Source: Synergistota bacterium (GTDB lineage: Bacteria; Synergistota; JAGHAJ01). From it: a stretch of 11,599 bases of DNA. Under the pieces are notes generated by a model, which did no database searches, was not told the DNA's origin, and saw only the letters and a list, made by a program, of their open reading frames with translations. The translations under genes were made by a program, and so were the position numbers. Numbering within the stretch: position 1 is the first letter of the stretch; every line of letters starts with the position of its first letter. The stretch is from positions 1-11,599 of the forward strand of contig JAGHAJ010000182.1 in the NCBI GenBank assembly GCA_021161545.1, read 5' to 3'. Below are positions 1 to 7,599 of the stretch, piece after piece.

Positions 1-667
1 CTCTAAAGCTCACAGTAATATTGCCAGTAACAGATGAATCTATAAGTATATTCATACCCACCATCCTGGCTATCGCCCTAAATACATCCTGAATGTTAGC
101 ATCTCTGAACTCAACTGTTATTCTCTTATTTGCCCAATAAGATATACCCGAATATTTGTTAGTCGTTACAACCTTCCGAATCATGCTGCTGGTGCTCTTC
201 TTAACACTCTTTTTGGCACCTACTGCTCTTTTAACTGCTTTTCCCTTGTTCTCTTGACGATACGGATCTTTAGAAGGCGATAGCACATATACAACCACCT
301 TCTTCTCCCTTGGTTCATACCTCACCTTATACCTTCCAGGGCTAAATAGGTCAATTACCATCCTTGCCACCACGGGGTGCAGACTAAACTGAGCACTTCT
401 GATAGCAGCCACATTACCATAACGAACGGGTAGCCCCATCTTCTTTCTCAGAATGGTATTAGGAAAATCTACTATAACTTTGTTTTCCTCAGTCCAATAG
501 GAGATTTGAGGCTTGACAAAGACGGAAAGATTTACCACAACCTTAACCCACCTATAACTCTTATAATATTGTATAGAGACTATCTTTCCATACCTTGAGG
601 CATATGAGAAAGAATACATTAATAAAAGGACAAAAACTACCCCTATTACCTTGCTCATATTTCTCAT
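1..667 (-). CDS. pilQ: Type IV pilus secretin PilQ, N-terminal part (cut by left edge)
   Basis: PilQ forms the outer-membrane ring through which the pilus fibre passes. About 222 residues are visible. They comprise a signal peptide (hydrophobic run at residues 7-22, likely cleavage after the SYA at 21-23), an AMIN domain at about 27-128 (peptidoglycan binding, with VIVDFPN and ARMVIDL strands), a linker at about 131-171 very rich in Lys/Arg, and the start of a secretin/TonB short N-terminal (STN) domain from about 181 (ITVEFRDANIQDVFRAIA). The N-domains and secretin core lie beyond the window. The start is ambiguous, with in-frame ATGs at 679, 667 and 658. I chose 667, which has GGTGG five bases upstream and gives MRN before the hydrophobic core. 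A GTG at 676 also has GGAG six bases upstream. The gene follows pilP immediately and ends the visible pilMNOPQ series. Identity rests on domain order plus context. Confidence 0.9.
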   Translation of the reverse strand, partial: MRNMSKVIGVVFVLLLMYSFSYASRYGKIVSIQYYKSYRWVKVVVNLSVFVKPQISYWTEENKVIVDFPNTILRKKMGLPVRYGNVAAIRSAQFSLHPVVARMVIDLFSPGRYKVRYEPREKKVVVYVLSPSKDPYRQENKGKAVKRAVGAKKSVKKSTSSMIRKVVTTNKYSGISYWANKRITVEFRDANIQDVFRAIARMVGMNILIDSSVTGNITVSFR

Positions 668-679
668 TACTACCACCAT

Positions 680-1183
680 CTACTCCAAATTTAACATTAC
701 CCTTTCATTTCTCCATTTTACCACAACTTTCCCATCGCCGATAGAGATAACCCTCACTTCTCCTACATTCTCCCCCTCTTTAACGATAACGCCTTTTTTA
801 TCGCCGATATCCAACACAGCTATTCTCACATTACCAGAGACTACTATACCCCTCAAAACAATGGTTGGCATCACAGGTTTCTCAACACTTACAGATTTCT
901 TACCATTATTTTCAACTATTGGAGGAGAAAATGGGTCTTTCCCTTCCTTTGCAAACCTATTTACTACCATCATTATATCCATATTCTCTTTATCCTGCAG
1001 AAAATCCCTTAATAGCTGCACTGCATGTGCACTTCCTGTTGTAGGAACATTTGACACTACCACACGAGAAAGGGTTGAAGCAGCCATGCTACCAAGATAA
1101 TTAGCAATCTTCCACCACACAACAACTGCTGTAATCATCATAAGAACAATCAAAAAAAGGCGTAAGAACCTGCTATCTTCCAC
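680..1183 (-). CDS. pilP: PilP-like pilus assembly protein with N-terminal membrane anchor
   Basis: Known PilP proteins are inner-membrane-attached periplasmic proteins that connect the PilN/PilO dimer to PilQ. Here 167 residues show a membrane helix at about 6-25, a flexible stretch, a KDPFSPP motif at 82-88 (the KDPF-type motif before the PilP/GspC homology region), and a small beta domain at about 105-165 with the pattern LRGIV...GVIVKEGENVGEVRV. Most PilP proteins are lipoproteins. This one has no lipobox Cys, so the helix probably stays as an anchor, as in GspC of type II secretion. Translation starts at GTG (1183-1181), whose G is shared with the pilO TAG stop. GGGGAGG lies 7 bases upstream and supports this start. 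It sits between pilO and pilQ, exactly where PilP is expected. The name PilP is by fold and position, since sequence similarity in this family is weak. Confidence 0.85.
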   Translation of the reverse strand: MEDSRFLRLFLIVLMMITAVVVWWKIANYLGSMAASTLSRVVVSNVPTTGSAHAVQLLRDFLQDKENMDIMMVVNRFAKEGKDPFSPPIVENNGKKSVSVEKPVMPTIVLRGIVVSGNVRIAVLDIGDKKGVIVKEGENVGEVRVISIGDGKVVVKWRNERVMLNLE

Positions 1184-1719
1184 TATTTAACCTCCCCATA
1201 TATAACCAGAAAGAGCTGAAAATCTATCCCCTTCCGTACCTTTTTAATACTTAACTGCTTCACCAAAACCACATATTCTGAATGCTTGAGTTTTAGCAAA
1301 AACTTCATGAAAGCATAGTAGTTAGCAGTACCAGATATAGAAATAGATATACCCTTTTTACCAAGCTCTGGCTTTATAGACCCAAGTCTCACACCACAAT
1401 TACCAGCTGTATTGCTTATAAAACTCAGTATATCTCCCTTATAAAGCCTCAGTTTTATCCGTGGTAGCTTTCCCTCTTCTATAGCTACCCCAAGCTCTTT
1501 AAATTTATCTCTTTCTATTCGCTTCTTAGTGAGCCTACTCTGAACCTGCGCCAGAAGTGCCATCTTTTCCCCAATAAGCCTCTTCGCATCTGAAACTCTA
1601 CTATCTAATGGGAGAAAACCCACAAAGTAAACCACCCAAACTACAGCAAGAACAATCAAAGAAACCCTTACTGCCTGCTCCTCTTTCTGAAAGTAATCTG
1701 AAAGTCCCTTCAGTGTCAT
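1183..1719 (-). CDS. pilO: Type IV pilus inner-membrane alignment protein PilO
   Basis: PilO pairs with PilN through periplasmic coiled coils and ferredoxin-like domains and contacts PilP. The 178-residue protein has a short cytoplasmic N-terminus, one membrane helix at about 17-36, a charged heptad-like coiled coil at about 41-80, and an alpha/beta C-terminal domain at about 88-178 including SISISGTANYYAFMKFL (125-141), typical of the PilO fold. Length and layout match the family. The ATG at 1719 overlaps the pilN stop as ATGA, with GAGAGGT eight bases upstream. This indicates tight coupling so that PilN and PilO are made in step. The position directly after pilN and before pilP supports the call. 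Confidence 0.92.
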   Translation of the reverse strand: MTLKGLSDYFQKEEQAVRVSLIVLAVVWVVYFVGFLPLDSRVSDAKRLIGEKMALLAQVQSRLTKKRIERDKFKELGVAIEEGKLPRIKLRLYKGDILSFISNTAGNCGVRLGSIKPELGKKGISISISGTANYYAFMKFLLKLKHSEYVVLVKQLSIKKVRKGIDFQLFLVIYGEVK

Positions 1720-2264
1720 TTATATGTACCTCTCTTAAGCTTACATTCAAAGGAAAACTCCGATACGCCAAGAGAACCTTCAACATGTCTTATAACAGGC
1801 ATAGATATGGAACTTACAACACCAGAGTCCCTCAACTTAGAAATAAAATCACCGACACTATCATCTAAGAATGCCTTTCCCTGAACTTTAGCCACGCTTC
1901 CGCTAAAATCCAGAGATTCAAGCCACATCCCAGAAGGAATATCAGCAGTGACAAACAGCAAAAATGGTACTATGCTATGCGACTTGGGCTCAGCAGAACT
2001 AATCAGACTTGCAAGCGATTTGAGATACCTATCGTCCTTAGACATAGAAAGTTCCACTTTCTGGATATCCTTATTCACGCGCTCTATAGAATACTCTATC
2101 TTCTTGAGTAAAGTAGAGTAATTATACCATTCATATATATCCATTCCTATTAAAAAGCTCATTCCAATAATCATTGCCCCACTCAAAGCAAAAAGCAATA
2201 CCCTCTGAGTATCCCATTTTCTTTTGGCAATTTCAGAAGCAGGAATAAGATTTATCTTTATCAC
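1716..2264 (-). CDS. pilN: Type IV pilus inner-membrane protein PilN
   Basis: PilN is the membrane partner of PilM and PilO. Its cytoplasmic N-terminus carries a conserved INL(L/I)P peptide that docks in the groove of PilM, and that peptide is visible at residues 4-8 (INLIP). One membrane helix follows at about 21-42, then a coiled coil at about 49-75 and a periplasmic alpha/beta domain at about 95-178 (for example MWLESLDFSGSVAKVQGKAF). The length of 182 residues is normal for the family. Translation starts at GTG (2264-2262), overlapping the pilM TGA as GTGA, with AGGGGGAT about seven bases upstream. The intact docking peptide next to a complete pilM argues for a working PilM-PilN pair. Confidence 0.93.
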   Translation of the reverse strand: MIKINLIPASEIAKRKWDTQRVLLFALSGAMIIGMSFLIGMDIYEWYNYSTLLKKIEYSIERVNKDIQKVELSMSKDDRYLKSLASLISSAEPKSHSIVPFLLFVTADIPSGMWLESLDFSGSVAKVQGKAFLDDSVGDFISKLRDSGVVSSISMPVIRHVEGSLGVSEFSFECKLKRGTYK

Positions 2265-3247
2265 TTCTCAATCCCCCTAAGTGCAAGCCCTAAAGGTACA
2301 TCCATGATTACTCTCTTATTGAAATCTCCGTTTAGGCCCTCAACCTCCCGACAGTTAATAGTCCAATCTATCGGTACATTTAGCCTATCCCTAAGCCAAT
2401 CTAAAAGGCCTTTCGTAAGAGAACCTCCACCACTTAACAAAACACACTTAACAGGTATCTCTCTATAAATACCTATAAGATAATCAAAAGCCCTCTCTAT
2501 TTCCCTATAAAGGTCACTAAAGACCTCTTCCAATCGCTCCTTAACAATGCCATCTATGTTACCACTTTTCTTCACTTCTTCTGCAGCCTCAAAATCCAAG
2601 TTAAGGACACGCTGAAAAACACCGGTAAACATGTTTCCTCCAATAGTGGTATGTCTAACCAGAGGAACCTCTTTATCACCGAACACAACAAGGTTACTCC
2701 CACCTGCACCTATATCAAGCAATAAAGACATACCCTTACACTGCTTCTCATAGAGATTCAAAAGTGCAATGACATCCACATCCAAGATTGAAGGGGTGAT
2801 TCCTATAGTTTCAAGGATATTCAGGATGGGATCAACTGCACTCCTATAAGTAGCAACCACAAATACATCAGTACCCTCGGTATTCCTGCCAAGGATACTA
2901 AAATCAAATACTAGTTCTCCCTCTCCAGGCAACAGTCTCTCTGTCTCCAAGGCAAGAAAATCCTTTATTTCCTTTTCTGATGCAAGAGGTACCGTCATTG
3001 TCCTAACGATGACCTGACTCACAGAAATCGCAGCAACTATCTTAGCTCTCCTGTATTTCCTGAAAAGCGGTATGCATTCCTGCAATGCCGATGAAACTCC
3101 CTGCACATCAATTATTCTTCCACCCCTTACTGCACCCATCGGAAGTGAGACAGATTTTGCATCTACCACTGTCACCTTACCGCCTTTACTCTGAAGGACT
3201 AAGAGTTTAACAGCAGACGTTCCTACATCTACTCCTATAGAAAGCAC
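2261..3247 (-). CDS. pilM: Type IV pilus actin-like ATPase PilM
   Basis: PilM is a cytoplasmic FtsA/actin-fold protein that binds ATP and the PilN N-terminus, linking the cytoplasmic motor components to the membrane alignment complex. The 328-residue protein shows the actin-superfamily nucleotide motifs: phosphate-1 at 5-14 (GVDVGTSAVK), phosphate-2 at about 176-189 (LLDIGAGGSNLVVF) and the adenosine motif at about 269-281 (VLLSGGGSLTKGL). Subdomain 1C-type sequence at about 75-125 includes VRTMTVP and the ALETERLLPG helix. Length is close to that of typical PilM. It starts with GTG (3247-3245) sharing a base with the comFB TAG stop, with GAAGGTG five bases upstream. It heads the classical pilMNOPQ block. 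No catalytic motif is missing. Confidence 0.95.
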   Translation of the reverse strand: MLSIGVDVGTSAVKLLVLQSKGGKVTVVDAKSVSLPMGAVRGGRIIDVQGVSSALQECIPLFRKYRRAKIVAAISVSQVIVRTMTVPLASEKEIKDFLALETERLLPGEGELVFDFSILGRNTEGTDVFVVATYRSAVDPILNILETIGITPSILDVDVIALLNLYEKQCKGMSLLLDIGAGGSNLVVFGDKEVPLVRHTTIGGNMFTGVFQRVLNLDFEAAEEVKKSGNIDGIVKERLEEVFSDLYREIERAFDYLIGIYREIPVKCVLLSGGGSLTKGLLDWLRDRLNVPIDWTINCREVEGLNGDFNKRVIMDVPLGLALRGIEK

Positions 3248-3540
3248 TATTTCACCTTCTTAAGCCCGTGTCTTGGTCTTTTAGAAACCACATCTATAGC
3301 CTCCAAAACCACCCTGGTAATGTCTGCCTGCATTTGCACGCTCATAATATCAGTCTTAAAGTGTATATCACCTCTATCACTAACTACATATTTGGGAGGC
3401 AGATGATTCAGCGCATAAGCATACATATCCGCTTTGCACTGCTCGCATTTACAAATATCATCCCTATCCTTCAAGAACTTCTCAATCTCATCTTTAATTA
3501 TTTTCTCCATACGATTCTTCACATTATCGATAAGTGCCAC
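3247..3540 (-). CDS. comFB: ComFB-family protein (late competence / cyclic-dinucleotide receptor family)
   Basis: The 97-residue soluble protein carries the ComFB signature: an N-terminal helix with VKNRMEKIIKDEIEKFL (7-23), three closely spaced cysteines in CKCEQC (Cys30, 32, 35), and ALNHLPPKYVVSDRGD (43-58). This matches the family pattern CxCxxCxxDxxAxALNxLPPxYV. ComFB was first named from the Bacillus comF competence operon, where its role was unclear. Recent work on cyanobacterial members reports binding of cyclic dinucleotides and an effect on type IV pili. Here it lies between the minor pilins and pilM and shares a base with the pilM start. I infer a regulator of pilus activity rather than a structural part. 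Start is GTG (3540-3538), fixed by a near-perfect Shine-Dalgarno. The family call is firm, but ligand and partner are unknown. Confidence 0.88.
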   Translation of the reverse strand: MALIDNVKNRMEKIIKDEIEKFLKDRDDICKCEQCKADMYAYALNHLPPKYVVSDRGDIHFKTDIMSVQMQADITRVVLEAIDVVSKRPRHGLKKVK

Positions 3541-3545
3541 ACCTA

Positions 3546-3554
3546 CACCTCCTT
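3546..3554 (-). promoter_or_regulatory. Strong Shine-Dalgarno of comFB
   Basis: On the minus strand this reads AAGGAGGTG, the full complement of the 16S rRNA 3' end, with 5 bases to the GTG start at 3540. It is the strongest ribosome binding site in the pilus operon. It stands at the only intergenic gap inside it, so ComFB translation appears independent of coupling, unlike that of its neighbours. Confidence 0.75.
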
Positions 3555-3560
3555 ACCCTC

Positions 3561-4115
3561 TCAAAATATATTCCACCTGTACTCCACAGTATATATACTC
3601 CTCACAACAGAGTTTGCCCCTTTGAAACTCCCATCTCCAAATATAACAAGGTCGAACTTCAAATAAAAATACACATGACCACTCACTGTTGCAATTATCC
3701 TTGCTGTTTCACTACTATTATCTTCATATACACGCACACTGCATTCTTCACCGTTATCAAAAATAATAAGGCTATCCCTCTTAAAAATCAAGTCATAAGA
3801 AGGTGATACAGAAATACTTCCCACAATTTTCCATTCCTTCATGGAAATCGAACTCAAATAAAAGCTACTTCTAAATAAGGAAAGCCAGCCCCATCCACTG
3901 GGAAACCAGTCTGCCTCGGGATGAATATATTTGTGCGAAAAACATGTCCTACCCCACTCCCTGCCACCCTCCATCGCCCAAAATGCCCTCTCCTTAAAAA
4001 GATAGTTCTTAGATATAACCTGCTGTGTATTAACAACAAAGAATAGAGACACAGATATTATCCCTAAAAATGCAAGAACTATAATTACCCATAATAGTGC
4101 AAACCCTCTCCTCAT
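3561..4115 (-). CDS. PilX-like minor pilin (type IV prepilin)
   Basis: The 184-residue protein begins MRRG then FALLWVIIVLAFLGI, a prepilin-peptidase site (cleavage after Gly4) followed by a hydrophobic helix, and then the segment ERAFWAMEGG (42-51), which resembles the conserved 'A..AAEAG' stretch after the helix in PilX_N/GspK-type proteins. Mature residue +5 is Trp instead of the usual Glu, as expected for the PilX/GspK class, which sits at the fibre tip. The rest is a beta-rich globular head with two Cys (in RTCFS and EECSV) that could form a disulfide. I chose the ATG at 4115 because it overlaps the upstream stop as ATGA and gives the same short basic leader as the neighbouring pilins. 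A GTG 15 bases upstream (4130) would add MGEKP and has no good Shine-Dalgarno. It follows PilV- and PilW-like genes, the usual minor-pilin order. Confidence 0.82.
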   Translation of the reverse strand: MRRGFALLWVIIVLAFLGIISVSLFFVVNTQQVISKNYLFKERAFWAMEGGREWGRTCFSHKYIHPEADWFPSGWGWLSLFRSSFYLSSISMKEWKIVGSISVSPSYDLIFKRDSLIIFDNGEECSVRVYEDNSSETARIIATVSGHVYFYLKFDLVIFGDGSFKGANSVVRSIYTVEYRWNIF

Positions 4116-4645
4116 GGGTTTCTCACCCACACAGAACTTCTTACTTCATATCTTCGGGATTTTCCGTGGACATCAGGAGGAGAAGAAAGCACAAGATAGA
4201 TACTTAACAGGTGGCTACCCACATTCCACTCAAACTCAAGGGTCTTCACATTAACATAGTATTTATCTGAAGCGCTATCCTTACCATCTGTGAGGGGCAA
4301 AGGACTACTACCATCTTTCTTATAATAGAGAGTATAGGCTCCAGAGAGGGCACTGCAGAAGAAATAACTTATATCGCCATCAATATCAGTGAATGCAATC
4401 TTTTTATACTCAGGATGTCCTGGCATATTTTGAGAAATCACAATTGTGGAAGCCCTTGCCATTCTTAATTCAACTACCATCTTATTTATTGCAACTCTCG
4501 CATTTTGAACGATATCTACCTTTTTGCTTACCAACAAGTTCACAGAAAGACCACCCATAAAAAAAACCACAGCACTACCTATAGTTACTGCTAATATACC
4601 AACAACTATAATTAGTTCCACGAGAGTAAATGCTTTCTTCTTCAT
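4112..4645 (-). CDS. PilW/GspJ-like minor pilin (type IV prepilin)
   Basis: The 177-residue protein has a textbook prepilin start: a basic leader MKKKA, then FTLVELIIVVGILAV, with the N-methylated Phe at +1 and Glu at +5 (precursor residue 10). The residue before the cleavage site is Ala rather than Gly, which prepilin peptidases tolerate in some pilins. The helix continues with NARVAINKMVVELRMA (48-63), the amphipathic part typical of PilW/GspJ minor pilins, followed by a beta-rich head of about 115 residues. The ATG at 4645 directly follows the previous TAG stop and has GAGGAG about seven bases upstream. Among the three minor pilins here it is the only one with Glu5, so it is the one best equipped to pair with the next subunit's N-terminus. 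Assignment to PilW rather than another minor pilin is by gene order. Confidence 0.87.
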   Translation of the reverse strand: MKKKAFTLVELIIVVGILAVTIGSAVVFFMGGLSVNLLVSKKVDIVQNARVAINKMVVELRMARASTIVISQNMPGHPEYKKIAFTDIDGDISYFFCSALSGAYTLYYKKDGSSPLPLTDGKDSASDKYYVNVKTLEFEWNVGSHLLSIYLVLSSPPDVHGKSRRYEVRSSVWVRNP

Positions 4646-5038
4646 CTATCTTCTCCTCAATGTATATATATCAACGAATCTGGTAGGCTTGTCCTTACGC
4701 TCTACATGCACTTTTATACACCACATGTACTCGGAAACAGAACATCCACCATCATCTACCCACACAGGTACCGATGTTGTAACTACAATGTGGTAAGTCA
4801 CACCATTAAGGGTAGCATCGTACGGAGGAGGAGTATAGCCATTATCCATCACCTGTTCTAACACTCTGCGGGAGAGATTCACCATGCACACCTTATCTGA
4901 AAGTCTATCAGTGGAAATCAAAGCACCATAGTAAGAACTTATAAAGCTTTCTACACCTATCACCAGAACCGCCACAGCAATAAGGACAGAAACCAAGCCA
5001 AACGCCCTTTTCATAAATCGATTATACCACAAATTCAC
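4646..5038 (-). CDS. PilV-like minor pilin lacking Glu5
   Basis: The protein has the prepilin signature KRA-FGLVSVLIAVAVLVIGVE, close to the PilV pattern FSLVEVLIA, but Ser replaces Glu at mature +5. The head is small (about 95 residues) with Cys in KVCMV, GGCSV and MWCIK that could form a disulfide. Two starts compete. GTG at 5038 overlaps the upstream stop as GTGA and has AGGTGAT two bases away, giving a 12-residue leader (MNLWYNRFMKRA). ATG at 5014 gives the leader MKRA, like its siblings, but has no Shine-Dalgarno. It instead has a promoter-like TGGTATAAT six bases upstream. I list the longer form. It is the first of three minor pilins in V-W-X order. The prepilin class is certain. The exact PilV label is tentative. 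Confidence 0.8.
   Translation of the reverse strand: MNLWYNRFMKRAFGLVSVLIAVAVLVIGVESFISSYYGALISTDRLSDKVCMVNLSRRVLEQVMDNGYTPPPYDATLNGVTYHIVVTTSVPVWVDDGGCSVSEYMWCIKVHVERKDKPTRFVDIYTLRRR
5021..5029 (-). promoter_or_regulatory. Possible extended -10 promoter inside the pilus operon
   Basis: On the minus strand the sequence reads TGGTATAAT, a perfect extended -10 element (TGn plus TATAAT). It ends six bases before the ATG at 5014, so transcription would start at or next to that ATG and give a leaderless mRNA. No good -35 is seen (ATAGGT at 17-base spacing). The same bases would be codons Trp-Tyr-Asn if translation starts at 5038, so chance is possible. Confidence 0.35.
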
Positions 5039-5364
5039 TTATCACCTATATCTTCCTTAGTTGTTAAAATCATCTTGTCTGGATTCTCTTTCAAAAACTC
5101 CAAATATTTTCCCATATAACCGTCTTGCTTTTTTGGTTTCTTTTCAGGTAAAATATAAGAGGTCATACGAGAAAAGATTGACCTTCTGGAGGGGAGAGAA
5201 GAGAGAGTGTTATCTATCTTTTCAAGCGTAAGGAGGATATCTTGCTGTTTCTTTTTAATCTGTTTTATATCCATCTCTACAAGGTCTATCCGACGGAAAA
5301 GTAATTCTATAATTTCTCTAAAAGAAGATAGTACTGTAGATATCTTTTCCCTTTCATTATCCAT
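5035..5364 (-). CDS. Coiled-coil protein of unknown function, first gene of the pilus operon
   Basis: I do not recognise a family. The 109-residue product is soluble, with no signal peptide or membrane helix. Residues 1-57 are a highly charged helix with heptad-like hydrophobic spacing (IIELLFRRIDLVEMDIKQI), probably a coiled coil. After SLPSRRS comes a short amphipathic stretch (SIFSRMTSYILPE, 62-74), a Lys-rich linker (KKPKKQ) and a small C-terminal helix (KYLEFLKENPDKMIL). The start ATG at 5364 has AGGAG eleven bases upstream, which is rather far. Its stop overlaps the next gene as GTGA, so it belongs to the operon and is probably made together with the minor pilins. A cytoplasmic adaptor or regulator for pilus assembly is possible but unsupported by any motif. 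Confidence 0.7.
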   Translation of the reverse strand: MDNEREKISTVLSSFREIIELLFRRIDLVEMDIKQIKKKQQDILLTLEKIDNTLSSLPSRRSIFSRMTSYILPEKKPKKQDGYMGKYLEFLKENPDKMILTTKEDIGDK

Positions 5365-5406: not shown

Positions 5407-6288
5407 TTGATAGAAACCTTTGAAAGAGAGTTTGAGACAAATGGCATAAAAAAACTTATAGTCTGTAATCCATACGGAAAGGTAGAGCTAAACCTATGGG
5501 ACAAAGAGAGAATAAAGATAACTGTAACAAAAGAGGTAAATGGCAAGAACAAAGAGCACATAAACAATACCATAAAAAACATAGAAATGCTCCCCTCTAC
5601 TGAAAACAACATCCTTGAAATCAAGACACTAATACCCCCCTTTGTTCATATTTTAAATGGATTATCTTTAACTGTCAACTACCTCATCTATGCACCAACA
5701 AAGATAGAGGTCGAAATAGACACCACAGAAGGAGCAGTTGCTTCTTCCACAAAGGAAACAGAAGAGGCAATAGTAAACTTGATAACATCTGGCAGAAAAA
5801 GTATAATACATAACTATAGTGGAGATTTATCCACATTATCTGAAGCAGGAGATATAGTAGTATATAAAGCACAAGGAACTTTAAATCTGCAGAGCTATAG
5901 TGGAAATATAATAGTAAAAGAAGTAAAAGGAGAGTTGAAAATTCACTCAAATAGCGGTAATATAGATGTTGATATATGTGAAGGTAATATCGATGCATCT
6001 TCTAAAAGCGGAAACATATCTATCTCAAACGCAAGGGTAGAAAAACTAACTGCTAAATCTACAAGTGGCAACATAGAGTTAGTAGGAAAAAGAAATGTCA
6101 AAGAGGTATGTCAGTTAAACTCAAAAAGTGGTAATATTAGACTAAAGGGTCATGGCATCCCCCCTTCACAGATGAAAATTATAACAGTTGGCGGTAGAAT
6201 ACAGCTTAAAGGAGAAAAGGTATTTGCTATGTCAAGAGATGTGCCAATCTCTATAGAAACTTCAAGTGGAGATATATTTATAGACTAA
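5407..6288 (+). CDS. DUF4097-family beta-solenoid protein (first of two)
   Basis: The 293-residue protein matches the DUF4097 'putative adhesin' pattern. An N-terminal beta segment with LNLWDKERIKITVTKEV (28-44) is followed by a ladder of short repeats with SGNI/SGDI turns at residues 138, 165, 183, 201, 220, 241 and 287 and a GGRI variant at 262. Spacing of the central repeats is 18 residues, as in a right-handed beta-solenoid. There is no signal peptide or membrane helix, so it is probably cytoplasmic and the name adhesin is doubtful. Biochemical role is unknown for this family. Start is TTG at 5407 with AGGAGG ten bases upstream, and no better in-frame start is nearby. It is followed after 15 bases by a longer paralogue, suggesting tandem duplication and a shared structure or heteropolymer. 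Confidence 0.82.
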   Translation: MIETFEREFETNGIKKLIVCNPYGKVELNLWDKERIKITVTKEVNGKNKEHINNTIKNIEMLPSTENNILEIKTLIPPFVHILNGLSLTVNYLIYAPTKIEVEIDTTEGAVASSTKETEEAIVNLITSGRKSIIHNYSGDLSTLSEAGDIVVYKAQGTLNLQSYSGNIIVKEVKGELKIHSNSGNIDVDICEGNIDASSKSGNISISNARVEKLTAKSTSGNIELVGKRNVKEVCQLNSKSGNIRLKGHGIPPSQMKIITVGGRIQLKGEKVFAMSRDVPISIETSSGDIFID

Positions 6289-6303
6289 AGTGGGAGAGGG
6301 CAA

Positions 6304-7599
6304 ATGGGAATATTCAGCAGATTGTTTGGTAGGATATTCAGCAGATTGTTTGGTAGAAAGAAGGAGACCACAAAAGGGGCAGTTCCAAAAGTTGAGGAAA
6401 GGCAACCTATTTCCATTAACACTGTTTCAGACAGTGATAAAAATAGATTAGAAAATACTTCAACCCATGTAAGAAAAGGAGGAGATGTTATGAAAAGCGA
6501 GGTTATAGAAAGAGTTGAACTTACCGAGTACTCTGAACCCTATGAGAATCTCTTGTTGGTTCCACCGAATAGTAATCTGTCTTTATCCAATATTGCAGGT
6601 GATATTATAATAAATTCGTGGGACCAATCACTGCTGAAAATAATAGCAATAAAGCACTCATGGGGAGAAAGTAAAAGGGTAGCAAGAGAAAAAGTAAAAA
6701 AGATAGAAATTAAAGTAAACCAACAAGAAGACAGCGTAAAGATACTGACCATCTTCCCGGAAATAGAAGAGGGAGTGAAGGTACAAGGGTATGTGAGTTA
6801 TAGGTTGTTTGTCCCAAAGGAGATAAGTCTGAATATCCAAACAGAAAGTGGAAATACTTTTGTAAGAGACATTTACAGAAATGTAGCTGTTAAAGCTACA
6901 ACTGGTAGTATACTGGTAAGAAATATCGCAGGAAGCGTAGATACTACATCCACAGTAGGAAACATAGAAATATCCAATGTGAGGGAGAACGTAAATGTAG
7001 TTGCAACCTCTGGAAGGGTAATAGTAAATAACATAAGCGGGAATATAGATATAGAGACCTCATCTGGAGAGGTCAGGGTCTCCAATATAGAGCAGAATGT
7101 TATGGTAACAACAGAGCAAGGAAATATCATAATAAACAATATACAGGGGAATGTAGATGCAAAATCATCAACGGGAGATGTATCTATAGATACCATAGCA
7201 AGTAATGTAAATGTCATAGTAGAGTATGGAAACATACTTCTCGATAACATACAGGGCAGTATTACCACAAGGTTCAACAGAGGTTCTCTCAACATCGTAA
7301 ACAAACACGCCCCCATGATACATGCAAGTACAACCAGTGGAGATATCAACCTCAATACAGTAGTGCACAATGGTGGAAAGTATTTACTTGAAACCACTAT
7401 AGGAACCATTAATATGAGAATCCCGAGCAATTCTTCAACAGCCATAATAGCAAAGACCATAAAGGGTAATATCTCGTGCGAACTACCACTCATCATCACA
7501 CGCAGTGGAAACGAGGAATTAGCAGGTATCCTTAATCAGAATAAGGCAATAATCAAACTAACATCCACAGAAGGAGACATAAACATCAAAAAGAAATAA
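6304..7599 (+). CDS. DUF4097-family beta-solenoid protein with N-terminal amphipathic segment (second of two)
   Basis: 431 residues. Residues 2-18 are two copies of IFSRLFGR after an initial Gly, a basic amphipathic segment able to bind membranes. A polar linker follows to about 62. From Met63 the protein resembles the start of the preceding gene's product (beta segment including INSWDQSLLKIIAIK at 103-117). Residues 176-337 are nine uninterrupted 18-residue repeats, for example VNVVATSGRVIVNNISGN, the signature of a regular beta-solenoid. Further irregular repeats run to the C-terminus. No signal peptide is evident, so I infer an inner-face, membrane-attached intracellular protein, and no enzymatic motif is seen. 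ATG 6304 has GGGAG seven bases upstream. A second, stronger Shine-Dalgarno precedes in-frame ATG 6490. It is probably co-transcribed with the gene before it and with polA 16 bases after it. Confidence 0.82.
   Translation: MGIFSRLFGRIFSRLFGRKKETTKGAVPKVEERQPISINTVSDSDKNRLENTSTHVRKGGDVMKSEVIERVELTEYSEPYENLLLVPPNSNLSLSNIAGDIIINSWDQSLLKIIAIKHSWGESKRVAREKVKKIEIKVNQQEDSVKILTIFPEIEEGVKVQGYVSYRLFVPKEISLNIQTESGNTFVRDIYRNVAVKATTGSILVRNIAGSVDTTSTVGNIEISNVRENVNVVATSGRVIVNNISGNIDIETSSGEVRVSNIEQNVMVTTEQGNIIINNIQGNVDAKSSTGDVSIDTIASNVNVIVEYGNILLDNIQGSITTRFNRGSLNIVNKHAPMIHASTTSGDINLNTVVHNGGKYLLETTIGTINMRIPSNSSTAIIAKTIKGNISCELPLIITRSGNEELAGILNQNKAIIKLTSTEGDINIKKK
6310..6357 (+). repeat. 24-bp tandem duplication in the N-terminal coding sequence
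   Basis: Two adjacent 24-base units, 6310-6333 and 6334-6357, match at 23 of 24 positions (they differ only in the last base, G versus A). They encode the eight residues IFSRLFGR twice, keeping the frame and doubling the amphipathic segment. The near identity, including third codon positions, indicates a recent duplication. Confidence 0.95.
6477..6492 (+). promoter_or_regulatory. Strong internal Shine-Dalgarno and in-frame ATG
   Basis: AGGAGGAG (6477-6484) lies five bases before ATG 6490, which is codon 63 of the 431-residue frame. It is a better ribosome binding site than the one at 6304. Initiation here would give a 369-residue form without the amphipathic segment and linker, starting at the point where similarity to the preceding paralogue begins. 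Confidence 0.6.
6829..7314 (+). repeat. Nine coding repeats of 54 bp (18 residues)
   Basis: Residues 176-337 split into nine units of exactly 18 residues with no insertions. The consensus is roughly (V/I)-x-V-x-x-x-(S/T)-x-G-x-(I/V)-x-(I/V)-x-N-I-x-(G/x)-N. At DNA level the 54-base period is visible in patches (for example around 7033, 7141 and 7249), but units are well diverged, so the array is old and not a hotspot of recent expansion. Confidence 0.9.

Follow-up and report, generated by a model that had tools for sequence, protein, structure and literature searches.

ComFB proteins have lately been recognised as cyclic-dinucleotide receptors that affect pili in cyanobacteria, and the ComFBs of Bacillus subtilis and Thermoanaerobacter reportedly bind c-di-GMP too, according to a preprint. 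Type IV pili also receive cyclic-dinucleotide signals through the MshEN domain on PilB, PilZ proteins, FimX and the c-di-GMP riboswitch of Clostridioides difficile pili; these serve the same machine but act at the motor or the mRNA, while ComFB, encoded on the PilM side, would provide an input distinct from them. In Synechocystis, ComFB binds c-di-AMP (2.6 µM) and c-di-GMP (1.7 µM), and deletion of comFB results in hyperpiliation and poor transformation, together with a decrease in pilM mRNA and in PilN (PMC12313861). The Anabaena homologue, CdgR, acts on cell size through the transcription factor DevH (PMC13075795). In B. subtilis, deletion of comFB had no effect on transformation, and the cysteines of the C-rich motif are zinc ligands, the fourth ligand being Cys or His among ComFB homologues (PMC4381287).

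Here we describe a comFB gene located inside a type IV pilus operon, in a window (the whole stretch of DNA that was analysed) of 11,599 nucleotides, which makes up one entire contig. We found no description of such an arrangement in the open-licence literature; the search was limited to papers of that kind, and the claim of novelty is limited accordingly. The ComFB of the window shares its family, its predicted fold and the signature DxxAYALNxLPPxY with the cyanobacterial ComFB/CdgR proteins (Slr1970, Synpcc7942_1924 and Alr3277; structure 8hja), which are tied to pili and to pilMNO expression, as we propose for this protein. However, the cyanobacterial genes form an operon with hfq and not with pilMNOQ, and their products, at about 180 aa, are extended at the N-terminus and, unlike the window protein, have no cysteine motif in the aligned part. 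With B. subtilis ComFB (4wai) it has in common the family, the size, the CxCxxC zinc motif and a short overlap with the following gene, but the B. subtilis operon, comFA-comFB-comFC, includes no pilM, the fourth zinc ligand is Cys where His is predicted in the window protein, and SLNKVSP stands in place of the YALNxLPP form in a protein that has no transformation phenotype. ComFBs from pilus clusters of a Clostridia-like class (L012, L021, L038, L041, L071, L076 and others) resemble that of the window in both the order minor pilins-comFB-pilM and the CCCH motif, while its nearest clade mates (L095, L158, L156, L066, L079, L020 and others) are encoded in pilus clusters downstream of pilins or pilMNO and not directly before pilM.

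comFB lies between the minor-pilin genes and pilM

The identification of comFB in the initial annotation was borne out, since the protein matched PF10719 along its whole length (profile positions 1-83 of 83, 4.9e-27, 94.2 bits, cut-off 25) and contained both the three close cysteines (CKCEQC; C30/C32/C35) and ALNHLPPKYV. The span assigned to it, 3247-3554, contains the ORF itself, which covers 3247-3540, and its end at 3554 takes in the Shine-Dalgarno sequence at 3546-3554. As had also been stated, the gene lies between the minor pilins and pilM and shares one base with the pilM start: in the junction TAGTG, the last base of the TAG that ends comFB is also the first of the GTG that begins pilM, so that the two genes are probably translationally coupled. 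The spacing between the PilX/GspK-like gene and comFB is 20 bases. Against the model for B. subtilis-type late competence ComFB (NF052654), the score of 48.3 bits was under the equivalog cut-off of 120; the window ComFB is therefore not the Bacillus competence orthologue.

comFB has a very strong Shine-Dalgarno sequence of its own, as the same annotation had claimed. According to duplex energies computed against a generic 16S tail, AAGGAGGTG is the strongest of the operon (−15.0 kcal/mol vs −1.7 to −11.9 kcal/mol at nine other starts). The predicted site was stronger for comFB than for pilM in 9 of 11 pilM-adjacent pairs, a mild tendency in a quantity separate from protein amounts. This is at most a weak hint that the stronger ribosome site marks ComFB as a switch made in excess of PilM.

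The operon runs from a small coiled-coil-like gene through three minor-pilin-like genes, comFB, pilM, pilN, pilO and a PilP-like gene to the start of pilQ, within which the contig ends (Table 1). Profile searches thus recovered the components of a type IVa pilus operon, namely pilM, pilN, pilO and a secretin, together with minor pilins. A type II secretion system, whose marks would be a GspL that joins PilM-like and PilN-like parts in one protein and a GspD lacking AMIN, was ruled out, because pilM and pilN are separate genes and the secretin carries the AMIN and N0 domains of the T4P PilQ type. The presence of a secretin implies a diderm host. An Rfam search of the window at E up to 0.1 detected neither a c-di-GMP riboswitch nor any other element.

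Table 1. Position of comFB, its translation signal and motifs, and the surrounding pilus genes in the window
Feature	Coordinates	Strand	Details
Small coiled-coil-like protein, first gene of the operon	5035..5364	(-)	No significant family
PilV/GspI-like minor pilin	4646..5038	(-)	Weak TIGR01707/TIGR02523; position
PilW-like minor pilin	4112..4645	(-)	PF07963 24.2 bits (cut-off 21.2)
PilX/GspK-like minor pilin	3561..4130	(-)	N-terminal hydrophobic segment; weak NF037980
Shine-Dalgarno AAGGAGGTG of comFB	3546..3554	(-)	5 nt before GTG; −15.0 kcal/mol
comFB	3247..3540	(-)	GTG start, 97 aa, PF10719 94.2 bits
CKCEQC codons (C30, C32, C35)	3436..3453	(-)	Predicted zinc ligands
DxxAYALNxLPPxY signature (D38 to Y51)	3388..3429	(-)	
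His91 codon	3268..3270	(-)	Predicted fourth zinc ligand
pilM	2261..3247	(-)	TIGR01175 160.7 bits (cut-off 133); PF11104 119 bits
pilN	1716..2264	(-)	PF05137 40.7 bits
pilO-like (T2SSM-like)	1183..1719	(-)	PF04612 22.9 bits, below cut-off 27.8; position and size
pilP-like	680..1183	(-)	Position, one N-terminal hydrophobic segment, DPFSPP motif; no Pfam match
pilQ, N-terminal part	2..679	(-)	AMIN and GspD N0 domains

Linkage of comFB to pilM within the phylum and beyond it

Of the 61 phylum genomes searched with profiles, four had ComFB, and these were also the ones, and the only ones, with full-length PilM; elsewhere in the phylum PilM gave weak matches with partial profile coverage (E 1e-11 to 1e-14), which we left out of this count. 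In all four, pilM came directly after comFB, the two genes either overlapping by 1-7 bases or standing 12 bases apart. The four include the MAG 'bacterium GBS-1', which carries the NCBI lineage 'unclassified Bacteria' and which we take to belong to Calescamantes (EM19). It presented an uninterrupted run, pilD-pilV-pilW-pilX-comFB-pilM-pilN-pilO-pilP-pilQ-pilB-pilT-pilC, where the names were given partly by position and by the look of the sequences.

A similar order, pilB-pilT-pilC-pilin-pilD-minor pilins-comFB-pilM, was found in a Clostridiales-labelled MAG (L007, contig L188). In the Clostridia-like class of this MAG, ComFB was present in 102 of 341 genomes; PilM was matched in 124 at E up to 1e-10, of which at least 108 were kept once matches covering only the C-terminal part of the profile had been left out. 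Among the PilM matches listed, 76 of the 341 genomes had both proteins, 26 only ComFB, 32 only PilM and 207 neither, which corresponds to an odds ratio of 19 (Fisher 5e-28, in a test that ignores kinship). For 40 comFB genes pilM was on the same contig, within 16 kb in 31 cases and always on the same strand in these (31/31). Of 108 loci, 8 had comFB immediately before pilM and a further 32 had it no more than 1.5 kb from some other pilus gene, giving 40 of 108 in total; at six loci it sat between minor pilins and pilM. Other arrangements were pilMNO-comFB-aroK, pilD-comFB and pilins-comFB-aroK, flanked by yqeG/aroE-like genes on one side and by aroQ/pepP/efp-like genes on the other (flanking names were read from the sequences).

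The pilM-neighbourhood survey that the initial annotation had called for thus upheld a conserved linkage; since this linkage is kept in the phylum and recurs in the Clostridia-like class, the objection that comFB and pilM are unlinked in relatives fails. The linkage is real and recurrent, not universal, which makes ComFB an accessory and not a core pilus part. ComFB was found without PilM in 26 of its 102 genomes in the Clostridia-like class, among the PilM matches listed, and must therefore have other roles. The suggestion of a general mode of pilus control was too broad, given these genomes and the 32 with PilM and no ComFB; it is also countered by the phylum of a Nitrospirae-labelled genome, where ComFB occurred in 29 of 395 genomes and no pilM was seen within about 1.5 kb in the loci read. 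Many comFB genes of the Clostridia-like class (L030, L037, L043, L064, L072 and others) lie apart from pilus genes, between yqeG-like and rpsB-tsf-pyrH-like genes, hinting at another ComFB role. In a Spirochaetales-labelled MAG (L008:855-1565), a ComFB domain is followed by a C-terminal extension in a protein of 236 aa overall.

Pilus-linked ComFBs group together and share a predicted zinc site

We built a tree of 142 ComFB sequences, many forks of which remained unresolved for this short protein. The window ComFB, which has a long branch, grouped with its three phylum relatives (99/94), and this group fell within a larger supported clade (95/87), whose 15 rows were without exception from pilus clusters. 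The nearest Clostridia-class rows were genes following minor pilins or pilMNO. This topology would fit a transfer of the pilus cluster, comFB included, from one lineage to another, or else its retention from a shared source. In the survey alignment, C30, C32, C35 and H91 were 99-100% conserved, and these four residues make up the predicted four-ligand zinc site, in agreement with that of B. subtilis ComFB (PMC4381287). Y42 of DxxAYALNxLPPxY was present in 93% of the pilus-linked clade and in 3% of the other Clostridia-class ComFBs; it also occurs in Synechocystis CdgR, solved with bound c-di-GMP (8hja), and is suggestive as a candidate specificity mark.

An AF2 model of the window ComFB, computed from a five-sequence alignment, reached a moderate pLDDT of 72.8 and a pTM of 0.60. 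Its best solved match was 8hja (TM 0.59, Foldseek probability 1.00, VIA-align Z 7.7), along with 4wai (probability 1.00, Z 7.4). The Foldseek top five consisted only of these two structures, far ahead of the rest by E-value, and no other match listed had a probability above 0.2. The model is thus consistent with the ComFB/CdgR fold. The rmsd, however, was 4.0-4.6. As unrelated helical proteins came close behind by VIA-align Z, family membership is carried by the sequence match and not by the fold score.

Both classes of cyclase are encoded in the genome of the window, with one DAC (diadenylate cyclase) and four GGDEF matches, and DAC and GGDEF domains were present in 5/5 genomes tested, relatives included, so that either messenger is possible. 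By its gene content, the host would be able to make the ligand.

Proposed role of ComFB

The initial annotation had also put forward a second-messenger link of ComFB to pili, and the cyanobacterial work backs it (PMC12313861). We propose, with a probability of roughly 0.6, that ComFB is a dimeric receptor for cyclic dinucleotides, stabilised by zinc, whose gene shares an operon with pilMNOPQ and whose ligand state tunes the assembly of that pilus. This small protein would bind c-di-GMP and/or c-di-AMP, as expected from its family, would probably be coupled to pilM in translation and, depending on its ligand, would most likely affect pilus extension and the number of pili; together with ComEC, it might affect DNA uptake. 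We infer the ligand binding, the direction of the effect and the target alike. ComFB may do so by touching the PilM/PilN ring in the cytoplasm, or it may adjust pilMN expression. Because comFB is tied to pilM by position and overlap in two distant lineages, the PilMN complex is the first target candidate, although we regard direct contact between ComFB and PilM as doubtful. Somewhat more speculative is the idea that a dedicated ComFB branch has become a regulatory subunit at the base of the type IV pilus, sitting on the PilM/PilN ring, where c-di-GMP or c-di-AMP would switch assembly directly and independently of the motor ATPases. The recurrence in relatives and in Clostridia-like bacteria suggests a direct connection between pilus assembly and a cyclic-dinucleotide signal, and the pilM-linked ComFBs are small proteins suited to biochemistry.

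ComFB may instead regulate expression of the pilus operon, via a transcription factor or RNA and without touching the PilMN complex, a reading that we hold to be possible if tentative. The fall in pilM mRNA on loss of ComFB in Synechocystis (PMC12313861) and the action of CdgR through DevH (PMC13075795) speak for it; the tight overlap with pilM and the location within the operon, away from its edge, would suit a protein whose synthesis keeps pace with that of PilM, but the position as such fits both readings. It is unlikely that comFB is a passive housekeeping neighbour of the Clostridia pilus-cluster region (yqeG-aroE ... aroK-aroQ-pepP-efp), carried along when the cluster was transferred. 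Many comFB genes of the Clostridia-like class do lie between yqeG/aroE/pilD-like and aroK/aroQ/efp-like genes, whether pilus genes are present or absent, but no aro, yqeG or efp gene was seen in the pilus operon of the window or of GBS-1, comFB stays directly before pilM in all four phylum genomes that have it and sits between minor pilins and pilM at six Clostridia-class loci, and in the tree the pilus-linked genes group together.

We consider it similarly improbable that ComFB serves DNA uptake (competence) specifically and not the pilus in general. ComEC was found in 5/5 genomes tested, comFB belongs to the comF operon in Bacillus, and the Synechocystis comFB mutants transform poorly (PMC12313861). 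However, ComEC was also present in 10/14 control genomes and is therefore weak evidence for a competence role, comFB is dispensable for transformation in Bacillus (PMC4381287), and the hyperpiliation of the Synechocystis mutants indicates that the pilus itself is affected. Least credible to us is a zinc or redox sensor that acts on the pilus and is no nucleotide receptor, an idea raised by the B. subtilis authors (PMC4381287). The CCCH motif is 99-100% conserved in the surveyed Clostridia-class set, and the aligned part of cyanobacterial CdgR lacks these cysteines, which would agree with such a sensor; against it, the window protein shares the fold and the DxxAYALNxLPPxY signature with c-di-GMP-bound CdgR, and the zinc site may be structural.

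Additional features of the pilus regions

Upstream of the pilus operon, and divergent from it, the window carries two adjacent DUF4097 (toastrack) proteins (5407-7599, plus strand). A similar-looking pair occurs near the pilus region of GBS-1 (L187:1-2036), so that the neighbourhood is conserved. GBS-1 also has a small protein (L187:2094-2420) that looks like the product of the first gene of the operon. The PilX/GspK-like pilin encoded before comFB has 189 aa in the window, is long in G002 and reaches 1040 aa in GBS-1 (L187:8934-12056), where a Pfam search of the protein gave no match; the long GBS-1 form is possibly a tip adhesin. PilT was matched above the cut-off in GBS-1, G002 and G061, with no such match in the window genome, which is 82% complete. 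In the PilB of GBS-1 (L187:16985-18640) an MshEN domain was matched at 90 bits, which may give c-di-GMP a second way of acting on this machine; a PilB-like protein of the window genome (L189:365-1831) presented a weaker, partial MshEN match of 28.5 bits.
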